Assembly: GCF_026210795.1 (NCBI RefSeq)
Contig: NC_089457.1
Coordinates: 2,046,001-2,110,000, forward strand
Direction of reading: 5' to 3'
Source of the DNA: Rhizophagus irregularis
Taxonomy: Eukaryota > Glomeromycota > Glomeromycetes > Glomerales > Glomeraceae
DNA length: 64,000 nucleotides
Shown: one piece after another, positions 7,080 to 43,345 of the stretch
Layout: each line of letters starts with the position of its first letter
Numbering within the stretch: position 1 is the first letter of the stretch
Program-made: the position numbers and the translations under genes
The notes under the pieces: model-generated
The model's input: the letters and a program-made list of their open reading frames with translations, nothing else
Databases searched by the model: none
What the model was told of the DNA's origin: nothing

Positions 7080-9200
7080 ATTGATAACTACTGTTTCTCT
7101 ACCTATTTTTACTATCATATCAGCCATATCATTCCAATAGCAACCTGAATGACCTTTAACCTTATATATTTTAATGTTCAATTTCTTAGACTTGATAATA
7201 TCATAAATAGCGAAAAAATGATATAATTATTAAATTTAAGAAATTTATGGCCATATCTCGATACCACATACATTGTTAATTGTGTTGATATCATCGATCA
7301 CTGCCTAACTATCTGTATAAATATATATCCATGGTTCTCTGGAGGTGACTAGTAAAGCTGTCAGTATAGCAAGCAATTTAGGTCTGGTTGATAAGGGGTG
7401 GAATCTTATTTCACATGAAAAGCTAATATCTGTATTTTTTAAAATCCAACCTGCTCCCATAGTCCTATTATAATGACATCTTCATTGTTTATACAATTCA
7501 AATCTATTGAATCATCGGTAAAAAGTGAAACTCTTGATTGTCAAATTGTTCGAGGTATCTGAGAATATCTGAGAGCTCTGTGATTAGTAATATTGATAAG
7601 ATAGTTTTTTTAATAATGTCTAGGTCATGACTTGAAATATCAAGTGATATGAAAGGAAATTCATTCTCATACGATAAAGGTTTCATAATTATTCTCATCT
7701 TGATCAAATTAACAGGTATTAAAATCTCATAAGTAGAAGTATCCTGGTAATTATTAGTTGAACGTTTTACATCAATAATTGTTGATTTATGATATTTTTT
7801 CTTCTTTACATAGGATCATCCTCTATGTGAGTCGAGTTGGTTGAGCATCTGACACATTGGGTAATCAAATTACTGTTATCTTGTCTTATCCAATGTTGAT
7901 ATAAGAATTGTATGAGATTTTTCTTTAAAATTTTTCTGAATTGGTACTTATCTCCATCGCGTATAATGATCTGCCTTCCATCGCTTAAAGGAGGAGAAGG
8001 TATAAGTGTAATAGTCTTATTAGTCAGGGTAATCGTAACTTGGTACTGTTCTATTAATGTACGTTATCTATTCGAATTCTGATTGATAGCTATTTCTTTC
8101 AAGTATTTAAAAAAATTTGGGATTGGCCCTTTGGGATTTTTACCAAAAATCTTTTTGATCTGAGTCCAGAATAACATATCTACACTATTGTTATGTGTAA
8201 TGTGATCTAGAAAGTTAATATTGAGTAATTCTGCAGGTCATTTGATAAAAGATTCAATGGCCTTTATCCTTGATTGTTCTAGTTTCCTGAAATTTGTATG
8301 CCTTACATCAACAGATGTATGTAAGATTGAAATAATAGTATGTTGATATTACGTGGTTAAATTCCATGCAGTAAGATCTGTTGGTCTGAAGCTAAACATT
8401 TAATCCTTAAATGATTTCAATAATTTAAAGTTAAAGTTATTTTGTAAATTAATTTTTAGAATCAGCTCTGTGTGATCAACCAATATGCATTCTTGTAATT
8501 CTATGTGAAGCTGTGCATTCCTGAGTATGATTCTTGTGTTTATTCCATTCCAATCTTGTAAATTAATTCTAATAATAAATTCTGAATATTGTGCTATCCC
8601 TTAAACTGTTTTGCAGCCAAATTTGCCTGCAATTTTGTTTTTTAATTAAAGACACTTTTAAATACCTTAAAATATTTTATTACATAAACCAATATTTTTA
8701 TAATAAATTCTATAGTATTTTCTAAGTAAAATTGAAAAAAAAGTTCAATTTGATTAATGATTTTTTAAAAGTAAATGATTGACAAATTATAACAAATAGT
8801 AGCTAAATTTTTTAAATTGAAATATCTTTTTATCCATTAACCCTAGAAATATAAAATTACCACCATTTGATGCGTCTTAATGAGAAGAATCTGATAGAAA
8901 TAAAATTATTCTTCTACAAATATTATATGACAGGATAACTTATAAAATCTAAAAATTTATAGATTAATATAACTTTTTATTTATCAATTTTAGAGTTATG
9001 ATTTTATTACCATTAAATGCACCTTAATAAGAGGAATCTAACAAATATAATTTCATCTTTCTATGATCACTAGATCTTAAGATATTTTAAAAATTCTAAA
9101 ATTTTTAAAATTAATTTTAGCCCTTACAGTTTAAGGGATATGTAAATGCTAAGATAATGGCACTAATCCAACAATATTTTGGTGCGTAAAAATATTATTA
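7080..9200 (-). pseudogene. Broken LINE (non-LTR retrotransposon) fragment with RNase H remains
   Basis: On the minus strand, 7150-7080 translates to YKVKGHSGCYWNDMADMI, the conserved end of the RNase H domain found at the C terminus of LINE polyproteins. Upstream, near 7420-7300, the frame reads LSTRPKLLAILTALLVTS, then W and YIYTDS, a stop, and AVI, which matches the earlier RNase H strand carrying the catalytic Asp (TDSQAVI-type). Further upstream (8600-7800) runs such as EFIIRINLQDWNGINTRI and VTQCVRCSTNS resemble the linker between reverse transcriptase and RNase H. Stops and frameshifts are frequent, so it is dead. The element at 8598-9137 interrupts it; LINE-like sequence resumes after 9138. 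No reverse transcriptase core is visible. Confidence 0.7.
8598..9137 (-). mobile_element. TIR element family A, copy 1 (CCCTTAAACTGT ends)
   Basis: The left end CCCTTAAACTGT and right end ACAGTTTAAGGG are perfect 12-bp inverted repeats, extendable by one base (T..A) with TA on both sides, which would fit a TA target duplication. A related copy lies at 21,904-22,350 in the opposite orientation and matches over most of its length, including 'caggcaaatttgcctgca'. It has no coding capacity. Each copy holds two units of the hairpin/AATGGTGGTAA module described under findings. It sits inside the LINE fragment and so inserted after it. Confidence 0.8.
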
Positions 9201-9284
9201 TTTACAGACCTTGTGATTCTCATTTTTGTCTTAAGTAGAGTAATCATACAATTAAGCGCCGTCTTCGTCCGAAACCCAGTTTAG

Positions 9285-9502
9285 GCAAGATGGCGTTTTG
9301 CCGAAAAGCGAAATTCTGCCAAAACTATATTAAAGTTATATTAAAAAACTGGCAAAACTTTGGAGAAAGACGAAACTGCCAAAACTTATTATAAATGCCG
9401 AAACTGCTAAAACTCTGCCAAAACTATAATAAATCTATAGTAAAATTTTGACGAAACTAATCATAGGATTTTGAAGAGGTTTAGACAAGCAACCTTACAT
9501 AC
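9285..9502 (+). repeat. Dispersed repeat, copy 2 (first copy 2,665-2,922)
   Basis: The better-preserved copy of a non-coding repeat with recurrent GCCAAAACT words, ending 'gaagaggtttagacaagcaacctta'. It is GC-richer than its surroundings ('gcgccgtcttcgtccgaaac' just before it). Family unknown. Confidence 0.55.
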
Positions 9503-9799
9503 AATTATGAAGTGTTTGGCATTAATTTTCACTGACCAAAGTAGTTTTCAGTTTGTATTCGAGCCTTGCCATTAAAACTACATTATTGACATATGCTATT
9601 TGGCTTTAATCTTTAAATTCTTGTTTTATTTTCTAATTTTTATTTTTTACTAACTATATTTTCTTCACTCTATACTATTCTTTAATTTAATATATTTTAC
9701 TTTTCAATATCACAAATTTTACTTTTTAACTTTATAAATTTTATTATTATTTTATTTTTTGACTTTTTTCATGAATTTTATTTTTTATTTTTATATATA

Positions 9800-9943
9800 T
9801 AGTTCACCTTTTCTATAGTGAATTTTTATATAGTGAATAACTTGCTATAATAAAAAAAAGTTCAAATACAGATTTTTTATATATATAATAAAATAATTTT
9901 TAGTATCTATAGGGATTCACTATAGTAAGAATGAACTGTAGTT
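9800..9943. mobile_element. Short TIR element, family B (TATAGTGAAT ends)
   Basis: The left end 'atagttcaccttttctatag' and right end '..ctatagtaagaatgaactgta' are imperfect inverted repeats of about 30 bp around about 80 bp of AT-rich DNA. The left half is closely similar to 42,042-42,120 (shared words ctatagtgaatttttatatagtg and aaaagttca..tacagattttt). Non-autonomous MITE-like element, about 144 bp. Confidence 0.6.
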
Positions 9944-11082
9944 CTGTTTTTTATTTTTTGCTTTATTATTATCATGTATTTTTTTGTGTACTATAATTAC
10001 TAATATTAAAAATAAATAAAATATGAATTTGATAGTTTTTTCTGATTAATTAAATATTTTTAAACCATTATAATACAAAAAAAAATTTGCAAATAAAAGT
10101 ATTGCAAATTTTTAATGAAAATAAATTAAAATTGATTGATTAAAATTGATTAGCAAAAAAACTATGTAAAATATAAATTTTTATAAAGAAGATTTAATCT
10201 GAATTATTTAATTTAACAAATATTATGAAATTTAATGATTTAAAATAAGGAAATAGAAAAAAACAAAAGTAAGTTTGATAAAAAAAAATGGTTAAATAGT
10301 AAAAAAAAGGTAAAAAAAGCATAAAAAAGTTTGATAAAAATAATTAATACAATAAATTTCTTTTAATTTATTTGTATATTTTACATATAAGTATATAACT
10401 TTACCTAATATTATCTTTTGGCAAAGTATCAAGAATTTTTTTAGAAAATAAAAAGACACTTTCCTATAAGTTTAAAAAATCAATTTTTCAAAATTTATGA
10501 TTTTTTATAAAAATTTTTCTCTAGCAGATTTGGACCTCTAAAAAATATTATAAGATTTCTCATTATCTATCAGTTCTAAAAAGAAAATTACTACCATTCA
10601 ATTCATCTCAGTAAGATGAGTTATATTTCTTACTTTTACAATCATTAAATACTAAGTTATAGAAGTGGTATCTCCCCAAAATTTATTATTAAAATAATGC
10701 TGATTCTCATGGATTGGTTAATTCATTAATTTAAAATAATACTTCAGTTTTATATATAATAAAATTAAAATGAATTTTTTATTATTAAGGTAGATTCTTA
10801 TCTATTTAGTATTATATAATGCTAAGAAATAATGTTGAATTAAGTAAGTAAACATCAAAATTTGTCATGAATGCTTTTATTAAAAGTTTAATTTATACCA
10901 TTAAAGAGTTTAACAAAAATTAAATGAAAATCTTTATACAAATACTTTTAGTAAGAATTACAGTTAAAGAAAATCTGTACCGTTTATTGGATATCTGTGA
11001 AATTATCACATTATTAGTCATGTGAAGATCAAATAAGCTATTTTAAAAGTCAAAACTCTCTTTCTTGTACGAAAAAATTAAT
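9944..11082. other. Intergenic DNA with one solo copy of the hairpin module
   Basis: AT-rich, no gene seen. At about 10,585-10,625, minus strand, there is a single unit of the module (CTCATCTTACTGAGATGAATTG, then AATGGTAGTAA) preceded by 'aatgattgtaaaa', as in the satellite at 42.6-43.2 kb. The 3' part should hold the promoter of the gene starting at 11,083. Confidence 0.45.
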
Positions 11083-12431
11083 ATGGCGAATAATTTGGGA
11101 TATGAAAGCTTAAAAGAACTTGACGAAGTAGAAATAATAATTGTCGTTGATAATGAAGTTGATCCGTTATCTTCTTCAAATGCTAGTATCGGGAATATCA
11201 CAAGTAAATAAATTACCGTGCATGTTTAATGTTAATTTTATTAAAGTAAATATGTAATTTTATCTCTTATCATAGCTGAAATTAAGAGAGATTTAATAAA
11301 TAAAAAAGAAACTTTGGAGATTATGGAATACTGTTGTGGTGCCCATGGTTATTCTGTTCTTATCGTAAGTTAAATAGTAAAATGCACGTATTATTAATGG
11401 AAAAATTAATGGAAAAATGTTCTTAAATAGACTGGTACATGCAATGGGGAATCTCATTCGGTATTATTTGATGCTGGACCGTATGGAAAAATTTTTATGG
11501 ATAATTCACGTAAATTAGGAATTGATTATTCAAAAATTGAAACTGTGGTATATACATATAATTTCTTACAAAAAATTTTTTCGTAATAATAATTATTTTT
11601 TTTATTTACGTTTCAAGGTATTGAGTCATTGGCATTGCGGTAAAGCGTGATAAAAGACGTATACATATATGTATATTTCCTAAGTCCTAACTACATTGTT
11701 CTCACATGATTATATGATTATTAGACCATTCTGATGGACTACCGAGTGCAATTGAAGCAATAAGTAAAGCAAGACGCGATTGTTCTTTAAAAGAAGTAAT
11801 TGTCGATTTACCCAAAGATAGACCATCTCGTCGAGGAATTAAGCTTCCCAAGAGTGATAATGTGATGGTTATTAATAATCCTACATTTGAGGAACTTGAA
11901 AAAGCTGGCGGGAAGTTAGTGAAAACTGATGAATCTCACACAATATGTTCAAATTTCTTTTATGTGAGCGGAAAAATATCTCGTCATATTAAGTATGAGA
12001 CAGGATTAGCTAACCATGTAGCGTACGATGAAACATTGTCAACTTGGACAGATGATCCGTTAATAATGGAAGAAAGGTTTTTAGTATTAAGAATAAAAAA
12101 TAAAGGATTAATTGTAGTCACGGGATGCGGGCATGCAGGAATTGTCAACACTTTATTACAAGCTCAAAATCCGCTTTCTGATAAACGAGAAAAATATCCA
12201 ATTTATTTGGTTATGGGGGGATTTCATTTAGCGGGTTATGATCAAGAAAGTAAAATTGAAAAAACTGTGAGAGATTTAAAAGCATTAGTTAATCCCGCTT
12301 TTTTAGCTCCTGGTCATTGTTCTGGTTGGAGATGCAGAGCTGCATTAGAATTTCAATTACATGAGGGCGAAGCTGCATTTGCTGGAAGGGTTGCACCAAC
12401 CGCCGTTGGAAAAATATATAATATTACTTAG
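11083..12431 (+). CDS. Metallo-beta-lactamase-fold hydrolase, COG1237-like
   Basis: Five exons (11083-11203, 11276-11364, 11431-11547, 11618-11639, 11725-12431) join in frame to a protein of about 351 aa; the fourth exon is only 22 nt. The metal-binding motif spans the last intron: LSHWHCDHSDGLPSAI, i.e. HxHxDH. Later come TGCGHAGIVNTL, GGFHLAGY and APGHCSGW, which supply the remaining His/Asp ligands. This motif order, and the early VDNE, match COG1237 metal-dependent hydrolases, the group of archaeal dihydropterin-ribofuranosyl-aminobenzene 5'-phosphate synthases. The substrate in a fungus is not known. The first exon read without splicing would stop after 42 codons, so the intron is needed. 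The family is best known from prokaryotes; four introns show this is a true nuclear gene. Confidence 0.85.
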
Positions 12432-12583
12432 TTTATAGGGAATAATGTGATGATCTATTTCCGGTTATGGAAGTATGATTAAAACATTCCTTAAATATAT
12501 CAATTCCATTTATGGAAATATTGATTCATTTTATGTAATTCGTTTATCTGTAATTATAAATACATCTCGTGACTAATAAGCAA

Positions 12584-12591
12584 TGACGTCA
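12584..12591. promoter_or_regulatory. Perfect CRE palindrome TGACGTCA
   Basis: TGACGTCA lies 119 bp before the start codon of the RING gene, in the 278-bp gap behind the preceding gene. It is the consensus for ATF/CREB-type bZIP factors. Function is inferred from the motif and its position only. Confidence 0.45.
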
Positions 12592-12709
12592 CGTTCCCTT
12601 ATAATCAAAATATAGTGTCATAGTAAAATATAAATAGCCACTCCATTTAATAATAAAGTCTTATTTTTTTTATTTCAACTTTTCAAAAAAACGGGTATTT
12701 CTAAATACA

Positions 12710-13733
12710 ATGTCAAGTCCAGCGACAATCCCACGAACTTTTATTAATATGTCGGCATCTTCACCTATTGACTTGACGATGACACCATTGCCTGTTAGAA
12801 GAACTCCAGTGACCGATATCATAATAATAAGTGAATCTGAAGACGAAAATAATGACTCTTCGCATCGTAACAATAGTAATTATCGCTTTAATGATAATAA
12901 CAATCCTAATAGTATGCTTGGTTTTGATAGCCAAAATATTTTCAATTCTTCAACAAGACATTCTTCTAACAACATTCAAGATTCTTCAGGCAACAATACC
13001 AACTATAATCTTAGGAATGGTTTAGCAGGACTTAGTACTAACGGAAGTAGTTCTAACAGGAGCACCTCAACACGTCCCAATCGAACACAAAGTAGACATT
13101 CAATTAGAAGTTTGTTTTGCTTTAAAGATATTTTTTTTTTCCTTGTATATTAATTATATAAAATTTTTGATTTACTAATAATTTGAAAAAAATCTTTTTT
13201 TATAAAAAAATCATAATTTATGTATAGGCTTTTTAAATTTTATGTTAACAATGAGTCAAACCAATAATAATAACAATAACAATCGCCACCGACATCATTC
13301 TTCGGCATTTCATCCATATGCTTCAACCACAGAAGTATTATTAACGGCAAATGATATACATTATGGAAACAATAATTCTTCAGGATCTTCCAGGTCTCCA
13401 ATGTCAACTTTTTTTGATCCTAGTAGAGCAAATACAAATATTAACTCTAATGATGTTCAAATACTCAACACTCCACCACGTCGAAGAAATAATAATTCTC
13501 CTAAACCGCCAATATTATCTGGTCATGCAAGAGATCTTGAAGATTCTCACACATTAATTTGTGCCGATTGTGATGAATTATTACATGAAAAGTTATGGGC
13601 TTTAAGTAATTGTGGACACGTAGTATGTGGTTCTTGTGTAGATAAATACAAATATTCGGAAAAGAAAAAATTTCCATGTCCAAGTTGCAAAAAGACAGTA
13701 AACTCAAAAAATATACTACCACTATATGTGTAA
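12710..13733 (+). CDS. RING-finger protein with SUMO-interacting motifs (STUbL-like)
   Basis: Two exons (12710-13109, 13228-13733) join in phase to 301 aa. Near the N terminus are two SIM-like stretches: PIDLTM (residues 19-24) and DIIIISESEDE (36-46), the latter a hydrophobic core followed by Ser and acidic residues. The middle is Asn/Ser-rich and probably disordered. The C-terminal C3HC4 RING runs from CADC (Cys 245/248) through CGHVVCGSC to CPSC (Cys 284/287) and the protein ends 14 residues later. SIMs plus a C-terminal RING is the layout of SUMO-targeted ubiquitin ligases (Slx5/Rfp/RNF4 group). The role in clearing SUMO-modified nuclear proteins is inferred. An ordinary RING E3 with chance SIM-like runs is the alternative. 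The second exon has its own ATG at 13242, but the N-terminal exon has a clean donor and good phase. Confidence 0.75.
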
Positions 13734-14212
13734 TATAAAATGTTTTCTCATCAATTTCAAATATTTGCATAAATGAAACAAATTATTACATTCTCTATTT
13801 CGCCACGGATTCCATTTTTTTTTTAATTAATAATTATTTTAGTAATTTTAGTCCTTTTTATTATTATAATCATTTGTGATAAAATTCGGCTGTAAAATCA
13901 TAGGTTATTTGAAAAAAAGGAATGAAGTTGCAAGAATAAGAAGATTTATTTGGTGTGAAAATAACAAAAAACGATAATTTATAGATTTTTATTATTAAAA
14001 AACTTTCAACATGTATAGTTTCATTCAGCAATTGTATGTAACACATGTAAACCATTATTATTGCAGCAAGAAAAATTTCGAAGTTTTATTAGAACAAATA
14101 AGATTAAATTCTTTAATAATATATTATATGTTATACAAAAAAGAAACATTGATTTGTTAAACCTTAAACCTTAGCTTTTAAACATTTTCAATTAAGATAT
14201 AATTTGATCTGT
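13734..14212. other. Convergent intergenic gap
   Basis: Lies between the 3' ends of the RING gene (plus) and the Arb2-like gene (minus). It is AT-rich and probably holds both 3' untranslated regions. No further gene seen. Confidence 0.5.
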
Positions 14213-17200
14213 CTAAACATTGTTGTTCTGAGAGGAATCCTTTGAATTATTATCATCTTTTAAAACTTGAGCATCTGTATTAAAATTTGAATCTGTCGTA
14301 TTTTCTTTTGGTGTATTATTATTATTAATTTTTTCATTTTCAGAAATATCATTTTTTACAGTAACTTCATCATTCGTGATAGCATTGTTCATAAAAGCTT
14401 TTAGCGTATCTTTTTCAGTATTTTTTTCTAAATTAACTTCATTGGTTTGCTTGTTTATTACTGTTTTAGTAGTAGTCTCATTGGTTGCTTTGGCAACTAT
14501 TTCCACTTGCTCGTTCATTATTGCATTAGGTGTTTCGCTACCTGTCAGTTCCTCAATAGCCGTGGTATCTTTTTCTGAGCTAATCACATTCGTTGCCACT
14601 GTTTCATCAACTATTTTCACATCTGAACTTGAATCTAGCTGAGATTCCTCAGTAGCCTTAGTATCCTTTCCTGAGATAATCGTTTCAGTTTCCATAGTTG
14701 AACTTGAATCTAGCTGAGATTCCCTAGTAACCTTAGTATCCTTTTCTGAGCTAGTCGCTTCAGTTTCCATAGTTGAACTTGAATCTAGCTGAGATTCCTC
14801 AGTAGCCTTAGTATCCTTTTCTGAGCTAGTCACTTCAGTTTCCATAGTTGAACTTGAATCTAGCTGAGATTCTCCATTAGCCTTAATATCTTTTTCTGAG
14901 CTAATCGTTTCAGTTTCCATTTCCATAGCTGAACTTGAATCTAGCTGAGATTCCTCAGTAGCCTTAGTATCCTTTTCTGAGCTAGTCGCTTCAGTTTCCA
15001 TAGTTGAACTTGAATCTAGCTGGGATTCCTCAGTAGCCTTAATATCTTTCTCTGAGCTAATCGTTTCAGTTTTCATAGTTGAACTTGAATCTAACTGAGA
15101 TTCCCCATTAGCCTTAGTATCTTTTTCTGAGCTAGTCTCTTCAACTTCCATTTCCATAGCTGAACTTGAATTTAGCTGAGATTCCTTAGTATCCTTTTCT
15201 GAGCTAGTCGCTTCAGTTTCCATAGTTGAACTTGAATCTAGCTGAGATTCCCTAGTAACCTTAGTATCCTTTTCTGAGCTAGTCGCTTCAGTTTCCATAG
15301 TTGAACTTGAATCTAACTGAGATTCCCCATTAGCCTTAATATCTTTTTCTGAGCTAGTCTCTTCAACTTCCATTTCCATAGCTGAACTTGAATTTAGCTG
15401 AGATTCCTCAGTAGCCTTAGTATCCTTTTCTGAGCTAGTCGCTTCAGTTTCCATAGTTGAACTTGAATCTAGCTGAGATTCCTCAGTAGCCTTAGTATCA
15501 TTTTCTGAGCTAGTCGCTTCAGTTTCCATAGCTGAACTTGAATCTAGCTTAGTATCATTTTCTGAGCTGGTCTTATTGGTTGCTTCAGGTAATTCGTCAA
15601 TTTCCATATCATTTGTACCTTTCTCGTGTGTTATTGATTCACTACCATTTTGAGTTTGCAGTTTTGTTTCTTCATTAAATGATTTGACAACTCTTGATTC
15701 TTTATCATCTGTAGTATTTTAAGCGCTATTAATTATCCCAAGCTTGCGTTTTTATTGTTTTTATTAACTTTACTGTTCCTTACCTTCATTATTATTTGTA
15801 AAAGATTGTTCACTTGTTTCATTCTTTTGGTTTGTTATCTCTTTATTACCTCGAGCCCGAAATTGCAGAAATTCAAAAACGGGCTCGATGGCTACACCAG
15901 AAGTATATTCATGTTTATGATGACCTTGTTTGATTAAAGTAATATTAGTTATTTGTACACAAACTATTATAAAATAAATGCAAAACAGACTCTTCACCTG
16001 CTGAAAAACAATTACATCCATAAAATTGATTTGCTTCGCGTATAGGATCATTTATAGGTAAGTCTGATTTAATCCAATTAATAGCTTTTTTTGAAAACCA
16101 AAGTTTAGAATGTGTTGGTATCATTCCAGAGCTATGCACACTGTCCGTAAGTGCAATTCCCTTAACACGTTTATAAAAATCATCAGCTATTATAAAAAAC
16201 AAGTTAATTACTAATGAATCTTTGACTATTTTCTAACTCAAGCTTGATAATTTGATTTACCATATTGATCTAACAAATAACTAGTACAAATTCCACCATA
16301 ACTATGAGCCACAATTAGAATTTCTTTCGCTCTCGCGTTTCTGTAGATGAATTAATTTAAAATCGATTTTTTTTTTTTGAAAATTGTCAACAAAAATAAA
16401 TATATCTTACGTTACAAATTTATCCCATACATATAAACAATGATTTTGTGGTGATTCTGAGCCAAATATACGACGATCCCTAACCTTGAATAAATATTAA
16501 ATGGAAATAAGAATAACTACATTGTATAAAACGAAAATATGATTAATAAGCATTTTAACTTACTTCTCCATCTTTCATAATACTTCCATAATTCTCATTA
16601 GGATTAAATATAACAATCCCCCATTTTAACTCTTGGGCCTTTCTGATGTATGGAAACATAGTTCCAAGCTATATTTAATCAGCATTAAAAATAACAAAAA
16701 CGAATTAAATAATATATTTTCATACAGCTGCATCAAAAACACATAAATACACATTTTCAACCTCGAGAGAATCATTAATAATCACTATCCAAAAATACGA
16801 AATAAATTAATTAGTTCCAACAAAGATTTAACGCGTTTATTAAAGATAAATTTATAAACCTTGACGTGCCCATTGTCCAGGCCGCACTACTCCGCTTCCT
16901 TGTATTAGCAAAAGCAAAGTTTGACACTCTTGGGCATCATCACTATATAGAAGATAATGAAAATATTCTATTATTGACTGTGGTTTTTTTTATAATAGTA
17001 GGATCTTTATTTCTTATTTTGTATGTACCTTATATAAATTCTACTTTTTGCATTTGCAATGTTATCATCTTCCTTCAACTCCACCGGAATAATTTTTCTG
17101 ATGAGGTTATATTGTTCTACTAATTCATTTTCAATGAATTCACCGATTACATCTATATAACATTTAATCAAGATTTTAATAAAAAGTATTTGACTCATAA

Positions 17201-17462
17201 CATTGTATTAGAAAAAAAAATGATAAAGTACCACCCAATTCTTCATAACGTCTTTGGTTATAATAACGGTCTCCAGTTCTATAAAAGAACTCAAATCTCC
17301 CACCTAATAAAATTTGATAATAAAAAGTATAAATTAATATTTTGTTAAAATATATTACAATTCCGTCAGCATACCTGTTTCGATATCTCTCAATTCTCCT
17401 TTTTCATTAAAACGGTATCCAAACCCTTCAACGGTCTTTGGAAACTCGGTTTCTTCTGACAT
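14213..17462 (-). CDS. Arb2/FAM172 domain protein with a long acidic repeat tail
   Basis: Eleven exons read in phase from the ATG at 17462 to a stop at 14213. The N-terminal region is an Arb2/FAM172 (alpha/beta hydrolase-like) domain: FGYRFNEKGELRDIETG, LLLLIQGSGVVRPGQWAR, FNPNENYGSI, IVAHSYGGICTSYL (nucleophile elbow with Ser), ALTDSVHSSGM, NCFSAGHHKHEYTSG and PVFEFLQFRARG. In fission yeast Arb2 belongs to the ARC Argonaute complex; in animals FAM172A/ARB2A is linked to Ago2 and chromatin. The last exon (15708-14213) adds about 498 residues, mostly a tandem repeat (13 units of about 25 aa, consensus SQLDSSSTMETEATSSEKDTKATEE-like), then an Asn/Asp/Lys-rich end. The join between domain and tail is phase-correct, but a transcript is needed to prove it. 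A shorter splice form ending before the tail is possible: the frame before the last donor runs to a stop within a few codons. Confidence 0.8.
14600..15560 (-). repeat. Coding minisatellite, 13 units of about 75 bp
   Basis: Inside the last exon of the Arb2-like gene, the motif 'gaatctagctgagattcctcagtagcc' and its neighbours recur about every 75 bp. Units differ in a patterned way: SAMEMEVEETSSEKD..ANGE and STMETEATSSEKD..VTRE variants come back at intervals, suggesting duplication of multi-unit blocks. All length changes are multiples of three, so the frame is kept. Confidence 0.9.
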
Positions 17463-17817
17463 AATACTTGAAAAAGTTCGAAGAAAATACCGATAAACAC
17501 GTAAGGAGAGAGAATAGGACGATAAGAGAACGTGAGAAGAACGTCAGGAGTTTCAATATAGAGACTCCGAAACATTTATTAGATCACGTGCTTTAATTAC
17601 AATACAATATATATACAATTATACAAATCAAAAAAAGTGTCTGGTATAAAGTGGTAACTTTATTTTTTTTTATGAATATGTTCTTACACGAGATTTTTTT
17701 TTTTTTTTTACAAGATAAGTTTTAAATAAACATTTTTTAAAAATTATTGATGTAATAAATGTATTTATCAAATTATTAAACTGATTGTATTATAGGATTT
17801 TTAACAATATATATTAT

Positions 17818-20958: not shown

Positions 20959-21798
<840 letters not shown>

Positions 21799-21903
21799 TC
21801 AAGTGACAATTTTCCAGCTTGATTTATAATTTGAATGTAGTACAACGTAACCTTTAATGTGATTGATCACGTGTTTCGAATATATGTAAAAATATTTTTA
21901 TTT

Positions 21904-22350
21904 CCCTTAAACAGTAAGGGCTAAAATTAAGATCTAGTGATCATAGAAATGTGAAGTTTATTGAGGCGCATTTAATGGTAATAAAATCATAACTCTAAAA
22001 TTAATAGATAGAAAGTTATATTAATTTATAGATTTTATAAGATATCCTGTTACATAATATTTGTAGAACAATTTTTATTCTATCAGATTCTTCTAAGACG
22101 CATCAAATGGTGGTAATTTTATATTTCTAGGGTTAATAGATAAAAAGATATTTCAATTTAAAAGATTTAGCTACTATTTGTTATAATTTGCCGATATCAA
22201 ATTGAACTTTTTTCGATTTTTACTTAGAAAATACTATAGAATTTATTACAAAAATATTGGTTTATATAATAAAATATTTTAAAACATTTAAAGTATCTTT
22301 AATTAAAAAACAAAATTGCAGGCAAATTTGCCTGCAAAACAGTTTAAGGG
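21904..22350 (+). mobile_element. TIR element family A, copy 2
   Basis: Begins CCCTTAAACAGTAAGGGCTA and ends TGCAAAACAGTTTAAGGG. It is the inverted counterpart of 8,598-9,137, sharing almost the whole sequence but about 90 bp shorter. It carries two module units (near 21,960-21,980 and 22,085-22,112). It lies between the NKAP promoter and the 3' end of the nitrite reductase gene, so it could affect either. Confidence 0.8.
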
Positions 22351-22543
22351 TTACGATTAAAATAAATAAAATGCACTAACATTTTTAGTTCATAAATTTC
22401 ATTGACTGTATAAGAATCTATCGAATATAATCTGTTCTATAATGACTTTGCAAACTGCAAAGATATTATTTGAACTGCTAATATAAATAAAAATGGTACT
22501 TAAATTTAATTTATCCAATTTAAAATACACGGTACAGAAGTAA

Positions 22544-26343: not shown

Positions 26344-26389
26344 GATAATCTTATCGCGAATCGGTTGTAAAATAATTAAGATAAGATAA
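26344..26389. promoter_or_regulatory. Cluster of four GATA cores upstream of nitrite reductase
   Basis: GATAA occurs at 26344-26348, as TTATC at 26351-26355, and twice in tandem at 26380-26389, 118-163 bp before the start codon. GATA factors of the AreA/NIT2 class activate nitrate-assimilation genes when ammonium is lacking. Clustering is meaningful, although GATAA is common in AT-rich DNA. Confidence 0.5.
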
Positions 26390-26397
26390 AGAAACGA

Positions 26398-27832: not shown

Positions 27833-27919
27833 TTATATTTATTTATACTCTTCGATGTTTGATATTACAAAAATATTAAATAAACACTTCATAATGATAA
27901 AATTCGGTACATATATAGA

Positions 27920-29968: not shown

Positions 29969-30350
29969 TTTGTTTCTTTAGTTGCCTTTGTACGAAAATT
30001 GGATCAAATAATAATAAAAGTCAACGCAGGTTAGACTAGGCAAGGATTCATTATCGGATCATAGGTTGGGGAGATAGGGGTAAATCTATGGAACGTTGGG
30101 GTTTGATTAGCTTCTATTTTTTAATAAAATTTTAGCCAATCACAATACATAATAAAAGAGGGCGTAAAGTCGATTATCCTTATCGATGCAAGTTGAAAAT
30201 CCGCATTAATCGGCATGCATGAGCATTGAGCATGACATGCATGATTTCTCACGATGTTCGTCGATCCTGTAAAACTGTTCTAACTGTTCTGTTCGAAAAA
30301 GTTCCCTTAAACCGCGTTCGAAAATCAGATTCCGCGTCATAGCTTCAATA
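29969..30350. promoter_or_regulatory. Shared divergent promoter, URC1-like / UPRT
   Basis: A 382-bp gap between start codons of two genes of uracil metabolism. It contains two close GCATG-rich patches (ggcatgcatgagcattgag and gacatgcatgattt, 30211-30245). GC content is a little higher than in other gaps. No motif that I can name with confidence. Confidence 0.5.
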
Positions 30351-31373: not shown

Positions 31374-31516
31374 TTTGTCAATATATATTTGGTAGTTTTC
31401 ATAATATGTATTTTATTTTTAATGTATTATTATTAAATATTTAAAAATTTAATATTAGTCTGTAAGCCAAAGAATTTGTTTAAAAAATTGAATTGTCTTT
31501 CTCAAGAAAAAAAAAA

Positions 31517-32350
31517 TTATTTTCTTCCTTTTCTTCCTTTCTTTTTGGAAGAACCGCTAGCTGAAGATATAGATTGACCAGAAGTTGTAGCTGAAGTGTT
31601 TGAACTACCAACATCACCGCCTCCTTTTCCTTCTTTTAGCATACCACTAGAAGCAGCAGGAGAATGACTTGGTGGAAATTGTTGCGGATTAATTTTTTGA
31701 ATTTCTGGTAATGATGATGCTACTCTTTTGATTAATTCTTTACCTAAATAAATAAATACATATATATTATTTATTTATTTCAAAAAGTTGAGTTAATTTT
31801 AAACTTACGAGTTGGAATTTCTGACTTAAAAGGTGTTTTATCTTCATTAAACAATTGTACGCGTACTCTACCAGGATTTTCCCAATCACAAGGGTGTCCT
31901 TTATGTGGCTATTTATTATGAAGATTTTATAAATAAATTATACTTGTAATTTAAAAATCAGTGGCAAAAACTTACTTCATATAAACAATTTATTCCTATG
32001 TTCTTTACAACTTCAGCAATGTCTTTTGCCAAAGGATGTGGGGAAGCTATATCCTTACTAACTCTTCTTCCTTTCTGTACAGATTTGGTCGAATCGAAAT
32101 AAATTGGATATAAACATATCCAACTTCATAAAAATATTTAAAATTTGTTAATAAATTTTAAAACAACGATTTAACTTCGAATGGGATATGTTATATATAA
32201 TTACGATTTATATGCACTATCGTCTGAAGTTATTTTTGAAAATTTTGATAATTCTGGTAAATAATCCGGTGGATCATCATCTAGATTTATCATTGGAGGT
32301 GATGTAGGAAACATATTTAGAGGGTTTTGTTTTTTTGAACCTCTCGGCAT
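31517..32350 (-). CDS. SRP19: Signal recognition particle 19 kDa subunit
   Basis: Four exons, ATG at 32350 and stop at 31517. The SRP19 fold is clear: YPIYFDSTKSVQKGRRVSKD, HPLAKDIAEVVKN, then HPCDWENPGRVRVQLF across an intron. The protein binds helices 6 and 8 of SRP RNA and helps Srp54 loading for ER targeting. An N-terminal extension (MPRGSKKQNPLNMF, then acidic) and a Ser/Gly-rich tail ending in Lys/Arg (SSKKKGRKGRK) match the layout of fungal Sec65/SRP19. Confidence 0.92.
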
Positions 32351-32563
32351 TTTTATAATTTACAAAAGATAATTGTAAAGTTCGCACGCAGATCATATAA
32401 AATATATATGCCGATTGCACGTGATAATGCATATTTACCATGTACAGCAGAGTATAAATTTTTGTTTTAATTAATTTTGTATTAAATTTTTAAATAATCT
32501 AAAAAAATATTTTATTTCTTTGTATTACAAAATAGCTATTTTTAAAGAATCGATAATAATAAA

Positions 32564-34576
<2,013 letters not shown>

Positions 34577-34875
34577 TTTTGCTTATTCACTTATTCGCAG
34601 TAAAAGATTTATAAGTAATAAATTTTTATTTAAAAAATATTTTTACAAATCTCAAGGATCTATTTATTTATACTTTAAATTAGGGTTGCGTAATCACCTA
34701 TTACGGAATGTGGTACGAATCACATGAACTTCGCGGCCGATCATTTATTGTTTAAGTCTTTACGATGACAAAATTAAAATACTGTCTTGTAACCAAATGT
34801 TTTAACTAATAGATGAATTATTAAAATACTATAATATATAACGGATTATAAAAATCATCCAACTACAAATACCAA

Positions 34876-36140
34876 TTAAAGTGATGTTAAAATGACTTTT
34901 CTGTATTCCCAATATTTTTTTCGAATAGCATCATGCTTTTCTGCTAAAAGTGTACAAATTCTGATTCCTTCTTCTTTATCTGTGGCAGATCCTTTTCGCG
35001 CCCGACTCTCATAAATATCTACAAGACATCCAATAGCATGAGGAGATATAATATCCTGTTTTTCGATCTCTTTACATAATTCTTCCAAAATACCAATATC
35101 TTTATTAGACTTTGCGATAATGCTAGAAATATATTAAAAAAGTAAATATTTTTAATGTTAATCAAAAAATTTTAAAGCTAAATAACACATGCAAAGTATA
35201 CCCTTTAATATAATTCCATGGGCTTATATTATTTGGAGCCATTTTAATTTTTTCAATCACATATCTAAAAATAGATAAACAAATGTTTTATAAATCAACT
35301 AAAAATTTATACATATTTCTTATCATTATCACTTACTCAATTTCTTGAGTAAGAAATTCCTCAGTAGGTTTAGTTGGATTGAAAAAAAGGGTAAAATATC
35401 TCTGATTCCAGGCAGAGTTATTTCGAACATCTTTATCCAATAATTTATTGACAAAATCAAGTTCATTTTCCCATAAATTAAAAGTTCTTATAATCCATTG
35501 CCTGTAAGTCCAAGCATGATAATTTTTTGCGTCATCATTCAAAATCTCATTAATAAATGGCAATTCACAAGAAGCATCCATAAGTTTTTCCACAAGAACT
35601 TGTCGATGATGCCTTTAAAATTTTTAAAAAATATTAGATTGAAAAAATCCAAAAAAAAAACATTTAAATTAAATTTACCAAAGCTGGTAATTCTTTGGAT
35701 TACTCTCTATTTGTTCCTTTACAAAATCCAATTCCTCATTTAGATTTTTATTCAAAGAGAATAAAATTTGTTGACGATAGTGCCTAAAATAAAATTTCAA
35801 ACGAATTGATCAAATAAGAAGATTATTTAAAAAAGCGAGTCCATGATGCTACTAACCAGATAGTATAATGAGCAGGGTTATACTCAACAATTCTTTCTGT
35901 TAGTTTTAAAGCTCTTTCACTACGTTCATCCCTTTGAGAAATAGCGCGAAAGTAACCCATAGCTTCAGAGTCTTTTAAGAAAATAGATAAATATATAAAA
36001 TTTATTACTTCAACTAAAATCTTAGAACATAAATGAGCTTATATACATTCAGCATCGTATGCAATTGGTGCCAACGGGTCAGGTCCATCGTCTAGGGGAA
36101 TTGGTTTAATGTCGCTCCACACTTCAGCTTCTAACGCCAT
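34876..36140 (-). CDS. RAM2: Protein farnesyltransferase / GGTase-I alpha subunit
   Basis: Several exons, ATG 36140, stop 34876. The protein is a string of prenyltransferase alpha repeats with the typical W/Y/R pattern: [68 protein letters not shown] and [13 protein letters not shown]. The N terminus [20 protein letters not shown] is the conserved entry of this subunit. It pairs with the beta subunits to prenylate CaaX proteins such as Ras and Rho. Introns fall at the same place (after the conserved Trp) in two repeats. It shares a promoter of about 290 bp with ARL8. Confidence 0.93.
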
Positions 36141-36429
36141 TTGAGCAAAGTGTATTTATTCAAAGGAGAATAATACTAACTTTTGGAATAGGTCTCAAGT
36201 CAGAAGGAGACGTCAGAGCTTTATAACACGTGAAGCATCTCATGGTTAGGAGATTGTTGATCTGTCTGTCGATCAGTTCTCTTCAATTATGTAGTGTTTT
36301 GCATGCAGTAATTGAAACTTATAATCTAAGCTGAGGCACGTAAATAAATCACACTTCTAAAAACTCATTTTCTCACTTCTTTTAATTTTCACTCTTTCAA
36401 ATTTTTTTGGTAAAGTTTACTGATTTAAA
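36141..36429. promoter_or_regulatory. Shared divergent promoter, FNTA / ARL8
   Basis: A 289-bp gap between the two start codons. It includes an inverted pair 'gttgatctgtctgtcgatcag' near 36,252 and a pyrimidine-rich run just before the ARL8 start. No specific factor site is assigned. Confidence 0.4.
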
Positions 36430-37364
36430 ATGGCTTCTATATTGAAATCGTTCCTAGAATGGCTTAGGAGTTTATTTTTTAAGGTATTTTGAGTAAATTC
36501 CGAACATGGTAGATTATGACCGAAATTTTTGAATTCATACTAACTACGATCTTACTGTGTTAAAATAAACTAATAAAGACGGAACTAGAACTTACTCTAG
36601 TTGGCCTGCAGAACAGTGGTAAAACTACCTTGGTCAACGTAATTGCCGTAGGTGTCATTTTAGGGTTTTTTATTATCAGTAGAAGTCTAAATTTGGTAGA
36701 ATTCTCTAATAATTTTTCTGTCTTTTTTAAAAAAAAATTTATGCAAGTCTGGTCAATTCAGTGAAGATATGATTCCAACGGTAGGTTTCAACATGCGTAA
36801 AGTCACGAAAGGAAGCGTTACTATGAAATTATGGGATATTGGCGGACAACCACGTTTTCGAAGTATGTGGGAACGATATTGCCGTGGTGTAAATGCTATT
36901 GTGTAAGTACTATAGACAAAATAAAATTCTCATCTCAGCATTAACAAGTAAAGAATTTTCTTATTGAAAATGTAATGCTTTATTTAATAGATTTGTAGTT
37001 GACTCTGCCGATCACGAAAAATTAGATGCAGCAAGACAAGAATTACGCAATCTTTTGGATAAACCTCAACTTGCTAGTATCCCAGTTTTAGTTTTGGGAA
37101 ATAAAAATGACTTAGAGGATGCTTTGCCGGTTGATAAACTTATTGAAGAAATGTAGGCGGATACTTTATTTTCTTGAAAAGATAAATATATATATTTATT
37201 TATTCTTTGACCTTTATTTAACTATTTTTTTTTATCTATTTTATAGGAATTTAAAATCCATCAATAATAGGGAAGTTTCTTGTTATTCAATCTCTGCAAA
37301 AAATCAAGTAAATATTGATATAACTTTGCAATGGTTGATTAAAAAGGGTAAAGGATCAAAATAA
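36430..37364 (+). CDS. ARL8: Arf-like small GTPase Arl8
   Basis: Five exons; the first codes an 18-residue N-terminal amphipathic helix ([18 protein letters not shown]). G motifs: GLQNSGKT (G1), TVGFNMRKV (switch I), [12 protein letters not shown] (G3) and GNKNDL (G4), with [12 protein letters not shown] near the end. The sequence matches Arl8, which recruits kinesin and tethering factors to lysosomes or vacuoles, rather than Arf1 or Arl1. About 185 aa, normal size. All splice junctions keep phase. Confidence 0.95.
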
Positions 37365-38073
37365 ATGAATTGAGCAATTATTTTGAAAGTATCAGTTTAT
37401 AGTATATTTCAATTCCTATGTATTTTTGTACGATTATTTTTTTTATTTTGGTTGATAATTTATTTTGGAGCTTATTGTAGTTTCTCATATGATAGTAAAC
37501 TATTATATATAGATGGCTTCCATTTTTACTTTTTCATAATTAATTTTATCATTTATTGACTTTTATTGACTTATTATTAATCAACAAATAGGGGGGATTT
37601 AACAATACATTTTTTTTATTTTTTTTTTTTTAATAAATATAGCTTTATGTGACGTAAAAATGGGTGTTGCGTCACGAAGATAGAAATCATGTGAGATTTT
37701 CTAATTTCAAAAGTTAATTTTATAATCCTTACTCTTAAAATCTGATTTTTCTTTTTCGAGTTTAGCATTTTAATAAGAGCTTCAATTATTTTTTATTTAA
37801 ACATGCTTTTTGCCAAAAATTTTAAATATTAGCGCCTAGTTCCAAAATGATCGACATATTATCATACGAAAATTTCAATTTTTTCGGAATTAACAGCGGA
37901 AAAATGAGTACCTTCGTGGTGCGGCATTTTTGCGTATGACAAATGATGCAATATTTTATCTATCTATACTAATACATCAGAAAAAAAAAGATTATAAAAG
38001 GATGAGATAAATCCCTTATATCAAATTCTTTTTATTCACGATAATTAATTTTTAAATATATTATACATTCATA
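37365..38073. other. Intergenic gap ARL8 to SOD1
   Basis: No gene seen. It holds the ARL8 3' region and the SOD1 upstream region. A long T run lies at 37,610-37,632. Confidence 0.4.
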
Positions 38074-38796
38074 ATGACTATTAAAGCTGTTGCAGTTTTT
38101 ACTCCTGATAAACCATCTATCAAAGTAGGTGGTACTATTACTTTCATTCAGGAAAGTGAAAATGGGCCCACGGAAATTGATATTAAAATTGAAGGATTAG
38201 CTCCTGGTGAACATGGATTCCACATCCAGTATGTTTCTATATTTTAAATGTCCAATCGTGTAATTTTTGTGGCTGAATTTTTTGCCATAAAAATTTTTTG
38301 GTGCTAATAGTGAATTCGGTGATAACACGAATGGATGCACTTCAGCTGGACCTCATTTTAACCCATTCGGTAAAACTCATGGAGCTCCTAAGGATGATGA
38401 TCGTCACGTTGGCGATTTGGGTAATGTTACTGCTGGCCCGGATGGTAAAGTTGCTACTAAAATTACTGATGACCAAATTAAATTAAGTGGTCCCAACTCT
38501 GTAATCGGGTAATTCTATTTCGATCCTAAATTAAATTTTTTTTCTATTTTTCTTCAAAAATCTAAGTTATTTCTTATTATTGTATTAAATGATCCTATAG
38601 ACGTACTATCGTTATTCATGCTGATGTTGATGACCTTGGTAAAGGTGGTCATGAACTATCTCTTAAAACTGGTAATGCGGGTGATCGTCTTGCTTGTGGT
38701 GTTATCGGTGAGTTAATTAATTTCACACAATTTCTCTCTTAGGATTCATTTTTTTGTTAATCATAAATAATTATTCTCACAGGTATCACCAAATAA
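38074..38796 (+). CDS. SOD1: Cytosolic Cu/Zn superoxide dismutase
   Basis: Four exons (38074-38228, 38311-38508, 38601-38707, 38783-38796) give 157 aa. Copper and zinc ligands are present: [31 protein letters not shown] and [10 protein letters not shown]. The disulfide Cys pair (NGCTSAG and LACGVIG) and the C-terminal Arg (GDRLACG) are in place. No signal peptide, so cytosolic. The last exon codes only four residues plus the stop. In a plant-associated fungus it would help against host oxidative bursts, but this is inference. Confidence 0.96.
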
Positions 38797-39360
38797 ATTA
38801 CATACTATACACATATATTTATATTGTATATTATATAAAAAGGTATAGCCGGGCCACCAGAAGAACGATCATCACCAAAATATTATTTTAGGAGTGAACT
38901 GTGAAGAAAAAATTCATTTTTTTTTTCAATTTTTATTGTAGCCAATATTTTGTAATAATTGTATGTATATATCTTATTGCGTGTTTCTTTTTATTTTGGA
39001 AATAAATTTGAGTGATTAATTTGAAAAGAACTAACAATGAAATTTTATTGATTATTATTAAATTAAATGTTAATTCTAAACTCTTAAACCATTAAACTGG
39101 AAGTCTGATAAATAATCATATTAACCTATTTACATATTTCGTAAAATTTGTCATTTGAAAATATTTAAATTAACAATTCAAACTATAAACTATAAAACTA
39201 TAACCTCATCGTATGTTATGTTGTTATTATATTATTATTATAATAATTATTTTATTGCAAAATATTTACATATTTGTACAAATTTAATCATGCAATGCAA
39301 ATAAGCTGAAAGATTCAAATTAAAAAATAATAAAAAAATAATAAAAGAAGATTGAAGGGT
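38797..39360. other. Convergent gap SOD1 / ZC3H3-like
   Basis: Probably holds both 3' untranslated regions; AT-rich, with alternating AT words near 39,220-39,340. No gene seen. Confidence 0.45.
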
Positions 39361-40968
39361 TCAGTCATCAATTGGGATAAATGTCCATCCTGCCGCGAAA
39401 GGGTTTACACCATTCGCCATTTCCTCGCGAAGTTTCTTAATTTTTTCACGCTCAATCACATCCTCAGTCGGGTCCCTATCGTGTTTCTTACCAGCTTCAC
39501 TCTCTGTCTCAGTCGGTTCCTCGTAGAGACCCCACTCATGTTTCTTGCGACAGTTCATCCCCGCCGGACAATATCGGCCCACCATGAAGTCTTTACAGAG
39601 TGGTGCCCGTTTGCTAACCTTCACGTGTGTGTAATGGCAATCATCTTTAAGGCACATACCTTTACAGAAATGTCGACAGTACGGGATTAAATGTGCAGAT
39701 TCGACGTGTTGAAGTGGACATTTGTTGCTCAATGTACATTCAGAACCTTTAAGCCACAATTTGCAGACTTCCACTCGATTTGGATCGTGTTTATAAGCGC
39801 AATAATCGCCTTCTTTGCATCGACCTAAAAAGTAATAAATTAATATAAATCTTGAACCTTTAACTAGTACAAAATTAACAGTGAATTACTTACCGTATTT
39901 GTGATAATAAGTACAATACTTATTGACCAGCTTAGTCTTGAAAGCAGCCTTTGGCTTCTTACCAGACTTGTACTCGTCTTCTTTTGTCCTGCTTACAGAA
40001 TTCGCTGGTTCTGCTCTCTTTGTTGTTTTGTTTTTAATGAGTTCGGCACGAACAACAGTGTTCGGTCCCGTCTTAACAAAAACATTACCTGTTCCTGAAT
40101 TTGAAGCTGATTTTGGAGTCGTTGGCCTTGCAAATCTACCTGATGTTGGTGAACTTGTCATGTTATTAGTTGATGCAGAAATTTGAAGACTCAATTGTTT
40201 TGTATTTGTTGTGCTAGAAGTGCTAGATATACTAGAAGTGCTAGAAGTGCTAGAAGTGCTAGAAGGTGGTAGTTTTGTTGTAGTTGATTTTACATATTTT
40301 GCATCTGTACTTAAAGTTGATATTTGACATTCTGATGGTTTCATGGTTACGCTTAGTGCTTTCTTTTCTAAAACTTTGTTCGAATTCTGAGAATCCGATG
40401 GTCTTGAAATAATTGGTGTAGTTGATTCAGCAGTTCTATTAAAACTTGGCATTTGAGAATTGGATGGTCTTGTAGCAGTACTAATTGCTTTTTGGTTGAT
40501 AACTGATGCTGCTCCTGTGCTCACATTATAAATTTCCTGTTGAGGTGCAATCAATTTTGCAATAGTATCAAGTGTTAGTCCATATTCTAATTGTCTCGTG
40601 CCCAGATTATAAGCTATCGAATTTGTATATTTTTGGGTTCCAGCTACCTGATTGGGAACTGTACTATTGCTTAAAGACATTTGGTAAGTTGTTGTTTCCG
40701 TGGGTTTACTCAAGCTTTTGTTTGAAGCTACTTGATACAAAGTCTTTGACGTTGTTTTACCCATACCAGTACTTGAAGCTGCGTTATATGGAGTTGCTGC
40801 TCTCGTATTCATGTCATAAGTTGTTGGTTTTCTTAGATCTAAGTTATAAGATGTTTTTCTTGGGACCATTGTGGATCTTGCATTCGTGTTATAAGTAGCA
40901 GTTTTGTTATAAGTTGAGCTTCTTGTGCCCACGTTATAGATTGCAGATCTCGTATACATATAAGTCAT
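39361..40968 (-). CDS. CCCH zinc-finger protein, ZC3H3-like
   Basis: Two exons; ATG at 40968, intron at about 39,825-39,896, stop at 39361. The N-terminal 250 residues are low complexity, with a Tyr-centred imperfect repeat (SAIYNVGTRSSTYN, TATYNTNAR, TSYNLDLRKPTTYDMNTR) and later a Ser/Thr run. The C-terminal half has four CCCH fingers in a row: CTYYHKYGRCKEGDYCAYKH (spanning the intron), CKLWLKGSECTLSNKCPLQH, CRHFCKGMCLKDDCHYTH and CKDFMVGRYCPAGMNCRKKH. Spacing is C-x8-C-x5-C-x3-H, except C-x7-C-x4-C-x3-H in finger three. The order and linkers (DPNRVEVC, SKRAPLC) match ZC3H3, which acts in nuclear mRNA polyadenylation and export. Human ZC3H3 has five fingers; I see four. Confidence 0.85.
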
Positions 40969-42038
40969 GTATTAATTCTTTAGAAATTCCGATGAAGCTC
41001 TTAACGGAGAATTTTTATTGATCTCAAACGAAAAGAAATTGAAGTTTTCATATGATGAAAAAGTTGAGAGTAACGTAAATGTTACATTACTACTGTTTAT
41101 TATTGTGTCACAATCTATCCTAGTATTACTGTATCACAATCTTTTTTCAGTTTACCATAATTGTAGCGCTCGGGTGGCATTAAAGAAATTAACCATGTAA
41201 ACAATGAGAAATTATTCTAGATTTTTATCAAACTTGATAATCACATTTTCGTATTATTAATCTATTTGATATTTTATATATTTTATGTTATATTATATCA
41301 AATATAAGAAAAAGTAATACAATTCTTTTACTAATTCATATTTCTAAATAAAAATAACCTTTACAATCTGTTTTAGACCAATTTCTATATTAAAGTTATT
41401 TAAAAAGTTCAATTTTAAGTTTATGCTGTAACATAACATTTTAAGGGGTAAAAGTTTTATATGTCATAAAATTAAGCATTTTATTGGTTAAAATTAATAT
41501 TTATATAATCGGTTAACAAAATTCTTTCTTAAATAAAAAGTTAAGGTTTTTTATATATAAAACTAATATTATTACTACTTTCTACTATTACTGATAATTA
41601 ACAATATAATCTATATAACAAAAATTTTTATTAGATTTTCAGAGCAATGTGAAACTTGTTAATATTTATCCAAACTGTCCTGTTGAAGAAATTCTTAAAA
41701 GAGGTGGTAAAAATCTAAAGTTTAAAGTATTAATAAAATAATTTTTTAATAATATTGTATTTAGAATAAGTATTTATTTTAATTTTAATACTGAAAGTAA
41801 TAACTTTATTAAGAAATTTTAGAATATAATATTACTGTTTGGTATTGCATAAATACTCCAGATATTTTACAAAATACTAATTGAATAATACTTATATATT
41901 TGAAATATCAGATATTATATAAAGAAAAGTACAGTATAATTTTAATTAGAATTAAATTTATTAAGTTATCAGAATTAAAGAGAAATATGATTAATAAAAG
42001 TAAAATTTTTATATTTAATAAAATACTAAAGCAGAATA
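40969..42038. other. AT-rich intergenic DNA, no gene seen
   Basis: The first few hundred bases should contain the ZC3H3-like promoter. The rest is low-complexity AT DNA without readable frames. Confidence 0.4.
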
Positions 42039-42384
42039 CAGTTTACCCCTTCTATAGTGAATTTTTATATAGTGAGTAATTTGCTATAGTAAAGAAAAGT
42101 TCAGGTACAGATTTTTTTATATGACTTTTAATATAGTAAATTTTTTACTATAATAAATTTTAATTTTTTATTATTAATAGTAATATAAAATATAAAAATA
42201 ATATTACAGTTTACCCTTCCTATAGCAAATTTGATATAATGAATCACGTGATGCTTAGCCAATAAATTATGTCAATTTTCCCTTACTATAACAAAATAAC
42301 CAATCAAATTCTTCAAATTCTTTTTTAACTTGCTATAACGAATTTGAGGTGCAGAACAGCTTCTTCACTATATTAAAAGTAGTA
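42039..42384. mobile_element. Family B TIR element fragments, two partial copies
   Basis: 'acagttta(c)cccttctatag' occurs at about 42,040 and again at about 42,206. The first continues as in the family B element at 9,800. The second ends in the inverse-like 'cttgctataacgaatttgaggtgcagaac' and '..cttcactata'. The pieces are nested beside the family C element starting at 42,385. Confidence 0.5.
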
Positions 42385-43345
42385 CAGTCAACTCCCTCTA
42401 TAGTCACTCCCGTTATAGTCACATTCTACTATATAGTCACACCAGTTGAATGTTCAAAACACTTTATTATTAAAATTTATCCTATATAGTCACAATCTAT
42501 CTATAGTCACTATCACACCTATCCTCAAAAATCTTATATTAAAAAGAACCGTTTATAATCACAGTTATATAAAGAATATATTAAATAACTTGGCATCTAA
42601 TAATCGTACAAAGATGTATCATAGCATGTTAGAATCGTCTCACTGAGACGAATCGAATGGTGGTAGTTTTATCCTTTTCCGATCACTGGCTGACGAGTTA
42701 TTCAACAAAACGTTGAACATCGGCATTATAATATTTCTTGATTTACGTTTACTGCGCCATTTAACATTTTGCTAGATTTCTCAGTACCTAGTGATTGTAA
42801 AAAGACGATTTATAGCTCGTTGGAATCGCCTCATCAAGACGAATCGAATGGTGGTAAGCTCATCTCTCTGTGATCAATATTGACGGAGTTATTACTTAAA
42901 ACCCATTTAATATTTTTTAATTTCGGAAATTGATCTAGTGATTGGATTTCGATGTATCTTATACCATTAGAACCGTCTCATCAAGACGAATCGAATGGCG
43001 GTAAGATCATCTCTCTACGATTAATATTGGCAGAGTTATTACACAAAAACCATTAATATTTTTTTAATTTCGGAAATTAATCTAGTGATTGGATTTCGAC
43101 GTATTTTATACCATTAGAACCGTCTCATCAAGACGAATCGAATGGCGGTAAGATCATCTCTCTACGATTAATATTGGCGAAGTTATAATACAATAAAGTT
43201 TTAAGTATAATTCTGGCTAAAATTATGTTAATTTTTGGCAGGAATTATGATATACAAATATAAGAAATTTTTTATATAGTCACATCTCTTTATAATCACC
43301 AAATATGGACTGTCCCAAATGTGTGACTATAAAGAGAGTTGACTG
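42385..43345. mobile_element. Family C TIR element carrying a satellite (961 bp)
   Basis: The left end CAGTCAACTCCCTCTATAGT and right end ACTATAAAGAGAGTTGACTG are inverted repeats with TA directly outside both ends. The CAGT start, TA target and TIR sequence fit the pogo-like branch of Tc1/mariner. Subterminal 'tatagtcac' words repeat on both sides. The interior is a tandem array (separate entry), with no transposase. Non-autonomous. Confidence 0.75.
42630..43190 (+). repeat. Tandem array of the hairpin module, 147-bp period
   Basis: The core GACGAATCGAATGG begins near 42647, 42838, 42985 and 43132. The last three are 147 bp apart and the last two units are almost identical; the first spacing is 191 bp. 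Each unit has 'ctagtgattg' about 50 bp before the core and 'g(g/c)agagttatta' or similar about 45 bp after it. CGTCTCATCAAGACG can fold as a five-base stem. Confidence 0.85.

Follow-up and report, generated by a model that had tools for sequence, protein, structure and literature searches.

Bivalve MITEs of the pearl type contain short arrays of a ~160-170-bp repeat, BIV160/Cg170, within non-autonomous elements (PMC5139131). Tetris/TIR-220 of Drosophila virilis and Galileo are non-autonomous as well and have inverted ends that enclose tandem repeats in varying number (PMC4079207). Highly conserved domains are known from SINEs, and the V domain occurs in the MITE MER6 (PMC6887750). For Rhizophagus irregularis, the available portion of the description of a curated transposon library reports many unclassified repeats, together with families of the Tc1-Mariner and CACTA/Plavaka types (PMC11075540).

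Here, we analysed a repeat unit found in a 64,000-nucleotide stretch of R. irregularis DNA (G000:C29:2046001-2110000, hereafter the window) and followed it through the genome of 146,748,485 bases in 32 contigs.

Units of the window

The initial annotation had listed ten units in the window, in two element families called A and C and outside them. All ten are found where it had placed them, and profile searches back them (Table 1).

Table 1. Unit-bearing elements and units in the window (position 1 is its first nucleotide)
Feature	Position	Strand	Description
Family A element, copy 1	8597..9138	-	ends TCCCTTAAACTGT..ACAGTTTAAGGGA adjoining TA; two tandem units
Unit A1a	8821..8937	-	core CTTCTCATTAAGACGCATCAAATGGTGGTAA
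Unit A1b	8968..9085	-	core CCTCTTATTAAGGTGCATTTAATGGTAATAA, 147 bp from the A1a core
Single unit	10556..10650	-	without a recognised transposon end close by
Family A element, copy 2, shortened	21903..22351	+	two units
Unit A2b, shortened	21930..22020	+	profile match
Unit A2a	22052..22152	+	profile match
Family C element	42385..43345	+	23-bp inverted ends CAGTCAACTCCCTCTATAGTCAC; TA duplication; four units
Unit C1	42584..42702	+	subtype of its own; 191 bp to the next core
Unit C2	42777..42893	+	profile match
Unit C3	42932..43040	+	147 bp from C2
Unit C4	43079..43186	+	147 bp from C3
Decayed single unit	45592..45699	-	E 4e-9 with a profile without A and C

A profile built exclusively from units of other groups (D, E, F, I, J, K, M and N, see below) recovered all units of the window, with E values from 1.7e-7 to 1.8e-25. 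With an A-only profile, four of the four C units were matched (E 2e-10 to 3e-13); a C-only profile matched three of the A units at 4e-10, 2e-6 and 4e-7, and the fourth, shortened unit only at 0.1. Five shuffled windows searched with the same unit profiles gave no match at E<=1. The short core CGTCTN5AGACG is by itself poor evidence, since with up to two mismatches it occurs 11 times in the window versus 5.85 +/- 2.12 expected, hardly over chance, whereas the whole unit is far past chance. Its count was dropped as proof of sharing in favour of whole-unit profiles.

The annotation had defined the unit by this core and a tail. The core is present, but the symmetry reaches beyond CGTCT..AGACG and covers nearly the whole unit, and the second A unit (CATTTAATGGTAATAA) deviates from the proposed tail. 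Its main claim has held: the shared unit is much longer than the core and occurs in families with unrelated ends, far more than the two first recognised. The termini of A (TCCCTTAAACTG) and C (CAGTCAACTCCCTCTATAGTCAC), each adjoining TA, differ as it had described; these are not one family with homologous ends, and the units resemble each other better than random AT-rich DNA would.

Two other features were noticed in the window. At 14213-15607 on the minus strand, a 464-aa ORF is made of near-identical repeats of 25-27 residues (QLDSSSTMETEATSSEKDTKATEE), corresponding to DNA repeats of 75/81 bp. An 82-bp, TATAGTGAATT-rich repeat is present at 9797-9878 and 42036-42117 in copies that are 88% identical, and probably represents another TA-type element family.

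Host elements and their ends

Elements of at least five families (A, C, D, E and F), whose ends are unrelated, contain the unit. A, C and F have target duplications of 2 bp (TA), and those of D are 3 bp long. Family A elements measure about 540 bp and contain two tandem units, and their ends (TCCCTTAAACTG..) adjoin TA in most of 22 copies. The family C element of the window, of 961 bp, has no ORF above 66 aa, and in this family the TA duplication is found in 21 of the 23 elements with paired ends. Inverted pairs of units characterize both family D, with ends CACAGGTCGAAAAGTGAAAAATCAGG, and family F, whose elements of about 527 bp have ends CATCAGGAAATTTGTTTAGGCG that adjoin TA (the first base is variable, and what adjoins it is mostly TA). 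In family E, the ends (AAAGCTCTGAACGGTTCAGG) are near the units, which alternate in orientation; group I shares these ends and is located about 518 bp inside them at several places. In the genome, we counted 934 ends of family C, 563 of D, 260 of F and 81 of E, with 0 in the controls.

The A, C, D and F hosts have inverted ends and duplications of fixed length and fit MITEs, i.e. non-autonomous DNA transposons. The host elements are also short, as the sizes of C, A and F indicate, without coding capacity and present in many copies (81-934 ends in each family counted). Hosts of the Helitron or pearl type, which lack inverted ends and target duplications, were rejected, as both are present here. 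The ends of family D (CACAGGTC) agree with the CAC(A/T) start of CACTA/Plavaka ends, and 3-bp duplications flank four of five elements. These features make D a candidate CACTA/Plavaka member, a lead provided by its sequence.

The unit also occurs in at least four further contexts, namely J (L095), K (L097 and L107), M (L099, L100, L105 and L106) and N (L101); ends were mapped for five families, and each of these further groups may be a subtype of another or of a known family. Genome searches returned 3,191 matches to a 30-base core pattern with up to one mismatch and 1,809 to a 35-base consensus with up to three, both with 0 in the control, and these numbers omit diverged units. Unit counts also overstate the independent evidence, because the arms of D, E and F elements duplicate their units. 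The exact 21-base core had no match in viral contigs or in bacterial and archaeal genomes, and neither had a 16-base core string in a search of literature texts.

Some copies have been rearranged. At C13:4156720-4157250, a C element is inserted near the left end of an F element, so that two unit-bearing families are nested. In C copies at L091, at L092 and in the C8:1788198 region, the first unit is abruptly joined to differing foreign sequences; the L091 and C8 copies share one foreign repeat, and such junctions may show elements breaking or capturing DNA.

Anatomy of the unit and arrangement of its copies

Over ~110 bp, the unit forms an imperfect palindrome with the layout ATCTAGTGATC..CATTnGATTCGTCTCAnnGAGACGAATCnAATGGTGGTAA..CTCTAGnATnnATAGAT..GAGTTATT. 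The sequence of its left arm is ATCTAGTGATCGTA..GATGAATTATAGCTCATTnGATTCGTCTC; the reversed right arm is alike over nearly its full length, with 52% of arm positions pairing in register versus 25-29% when the arms are slid.

In the tandem families A, C, K, M and N, successive cores are 146-150 bp apart, nearly always 147 bp, and in the inverted arrangements of E, I and J steps of 145 bp alternate with steps of 181-184 bp. Family C elements contain 3-8 units, four of them in 16 of the 23. No array above eight units per element was met, and the exact cores, of undiverged units only, form clusters of three at most on the entire contig C1 and on two thirds of contig C2. The description of the unit as a satellite in the initial annotation is therefore not supported. 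As for its idea that units shuttle between transposons, the sharing across families is real, but no unit was seen moving alone and no single unit has flanking duplications.

Origin and spread of the unit

The explanation that we favour, and consider probable, is that an old palindromic cassette of ~110 bp constitutes internal cargo of many non-autonomous DNA transposons of R. irregularis, each of them moved by its own end-recognising transposase. Since the ends and the duplication lengths differ, each family has most likely been multiplied by a different transposase, to judge from its ends; the transposases would act on those ends, with the units as passengers. No end of the five host families matches the unit better than it matches shuffled units. 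Three pairs of D ends are only 109-120 bp apart (C1:2687940-2688048, C3:5864632-5864751 and C8:1563192-1563300); judged by their coordinates, not by their sequence, they leave no room for a unit, and D ends thus do not require one to spread.

In family C, unequal exchange or slippage would change the number of units in 147-bp steps, and a number varying from 3 to 8 is expected if steps are added and removed in this manner. The inverted pairs of D, E and F may have arisen by the doubling of a single unit when the element turned into a long inverted repeat. Recombination, conversion or nested insertion between elements would have brought the cassette into each family, either singly or in a short array. 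This entry is placed long ago because two units of one element are no more alike than units of different families: identities are 0.66 between C1 and C2, 0.56 between K1 and K2 and 0.67 between Aa and Ab, and mostly 0.5-0.74 between families. In a unit tree of low support, which we used for this point alone, the two C unit types fall apart, and so do those of K. Passage between families is inferred from the sharing itself, because no acquisition event was seen. Rather than an RNA hairpin, the central palindrome might be a putative site of protein binding that active source elements have retained.

The unit could instead be a small palindromic transposon in its own right, a hairpin MITE with ends near AATAACTCG..CGAGTTATT, inserted into elements that then spread it. 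The entire unit is indeed palindromic, with AATAACTnG..ATCTA at both outer ends, and single units occur, at 10.6 kb and 45.6 kb of the window, at C1:5034283 (L096) and at C12:22021. However, conservation peaks mid-unit, at 1.3 bits, and fades outward, to about 0.7-1.2 bits in the arms and about 0.4-0.5 outside, which is the opposite of what a transposon would show. Moreover, the few single units inspected had neither a flanking target duplication nor a common border, and nearly all exact cores of contig C1 are recognisable as units of C or D elements. We hold this origin to be unlikely; the single units could be what is left of decayed elements, or free units. The one at C1:5034283 is well kept and lies in a sequence resembling a Sel1-repeat gene.

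A different possibility is that the cassette is a working part, i.e. a cluster of binding sites serving as a transposase helper, for a host factor or as a chromatin signal of nucleosome length, which favours its carriers and has been kept and re-recruited. Between families, the core diverges by 0.305 and the arms by 0.44-0.47, with composition alone giving about 69-74%; units fetched through their core were left out of this comparison, and the slowdown of the core is inflated because the profile alignment is anchored on it. Among within-family copies (A and C1), core and arms are alike (2.7% vs 2.6-3.4%). The core thus appears to evolve modestly slower between families, which hints at a mild constraint in source elements and at putative protein binding. 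The units are clustered, and the 147-bp spacing is kept in five families. C and M have similar inter-unit spacers (identity 0.49-0.56, p 0.0004-0.03), likeness of C or M to K, N or A was not detectable, and among the other pairs tested a low p value was obtained for N vs A alone (p 0.01); a spacer common to all tandem families was discarded, as only C and M are alike. Conservation of the step without that of the spacer is compatible with a constraint on spacing, and also with an old common array whose spacers have decayed. Against a working part, D elements without room for the unit occur, and the unit is unlike all five host ends, in contrast to Tetris repeats; we know of no protein that binds it. 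This explanation seems improbable to us. The same is true of a selected module acting across families, in which a putative protein-binding palindrome at nucleosome-length (147-bp) steps would aid any carrier and be re-recruited across superfamilies.

All unit-bearing families might also descend from one composite element, the inside marking the lineage and the ends having been replaced later or borrowed. The tandem 147-bp layout of five families and the spacer sequence that C and M have in common are in line with such an ancestor, but the duplications are of 3 bp in D vs 2 bp in A, C and F, and the layouts differ, being tandem or inverted; we find this descent quite unlikely.

The symmetry of the unit is without covariation, and arm pairing itself is not maintained: when partners were shuffled among units 53% of the positions paired, and 123 double changes were observed vs 128 expected. 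It follows that no RNA hairpin is being preserved in the unit. In the window, no Rfam match reached the gathering score; elsewhere there were sub-threshold matches only, nearly all to long-hairpin miRNA models, and a tRNA search found none. An RNA hairpin gene or miRNA precursor was discarded on account of the lack of compensatory stem changes and of known-family matches; a tRNA, SINE or other RNA origin was also rejected, as some units have a box-A-like TAGCTCATTGG, but neither a tRNA nor an accepted match in Rfam was found. A coding repeat (147 bp would be 49 codons) was dismissed too, the only ORFs of at least 40 aa touching the C element, of 46 and 66 aa, leaving the array uncovered. In some units, folding is better than after shuffling (C3, z -3.3; D, -4.2; L093, -4.6), but in A (-0.7) and L096 (-0.8) it is not. 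With arms that do not covary and no accepted match from either Rfam or the tRNA search, a structured RNA or small-RNA hairpin, or a derivative of a tRNA or another known RNA gene, is very improbable.

On the cargo reading that we prefer, DNA transposon families of different end types have a cargo in common in an arbuscular mycorrhizal fungus. They form a countable system in which to ask whether modules of non-autonomous transposons have been selected for or travel as neutral passengers. Should the core bind a protein, the action of that protein would extend to thousands of sites. Unclassified repeats make up a large share of all repeats in this fungus, and a profile of the unit would help to sort them.

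Comparison with known systems

The curated library is from the same species, and the available portion of its description, which is what we compared, does not mention the unit; the library retains elements with transposition domains (PMC11075540), and hosts without such domains, like those described here, would have been excluded.

Like pearl, BIV160 and Cg170, the fungal units vary in number, occur as related repeats in different elements and have conserved motifs (PMC5139131). The arrays of Cg170, however, are mainly in Helitron-type elements and have up to 17 monomers in the sample described (PMC5139131), whereas the R. irregularis hosts are bounded by inverted ends and flanked by target duplications, their unit is palindromic and no long array was found. 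As in Tetris and Galileo, the fungal hosts hold internal tandem repeats of varying number (PMC4079207). TIR-220 shares 37 bp with the element end and forms long arrays in one element family (PMC4079207); in contrast, the fungal unit is without likeness to the ends and present in several families, and long arrays were not found. The domains of SINEs and MER6 provide the parallel of one internal domain, possibly constrained, common to families otherwise unrelated (PMC6887750). SINE domains are mainly those of animal retroelements, whereas the mapped hosts described here are all fungal DNA transposons and the domain is an arrayed palindrome. What sets the R. irregularis unit apart from its known relatives is how many end types of DNA transposons have one palindrome in common, together with the absence of long arrays.
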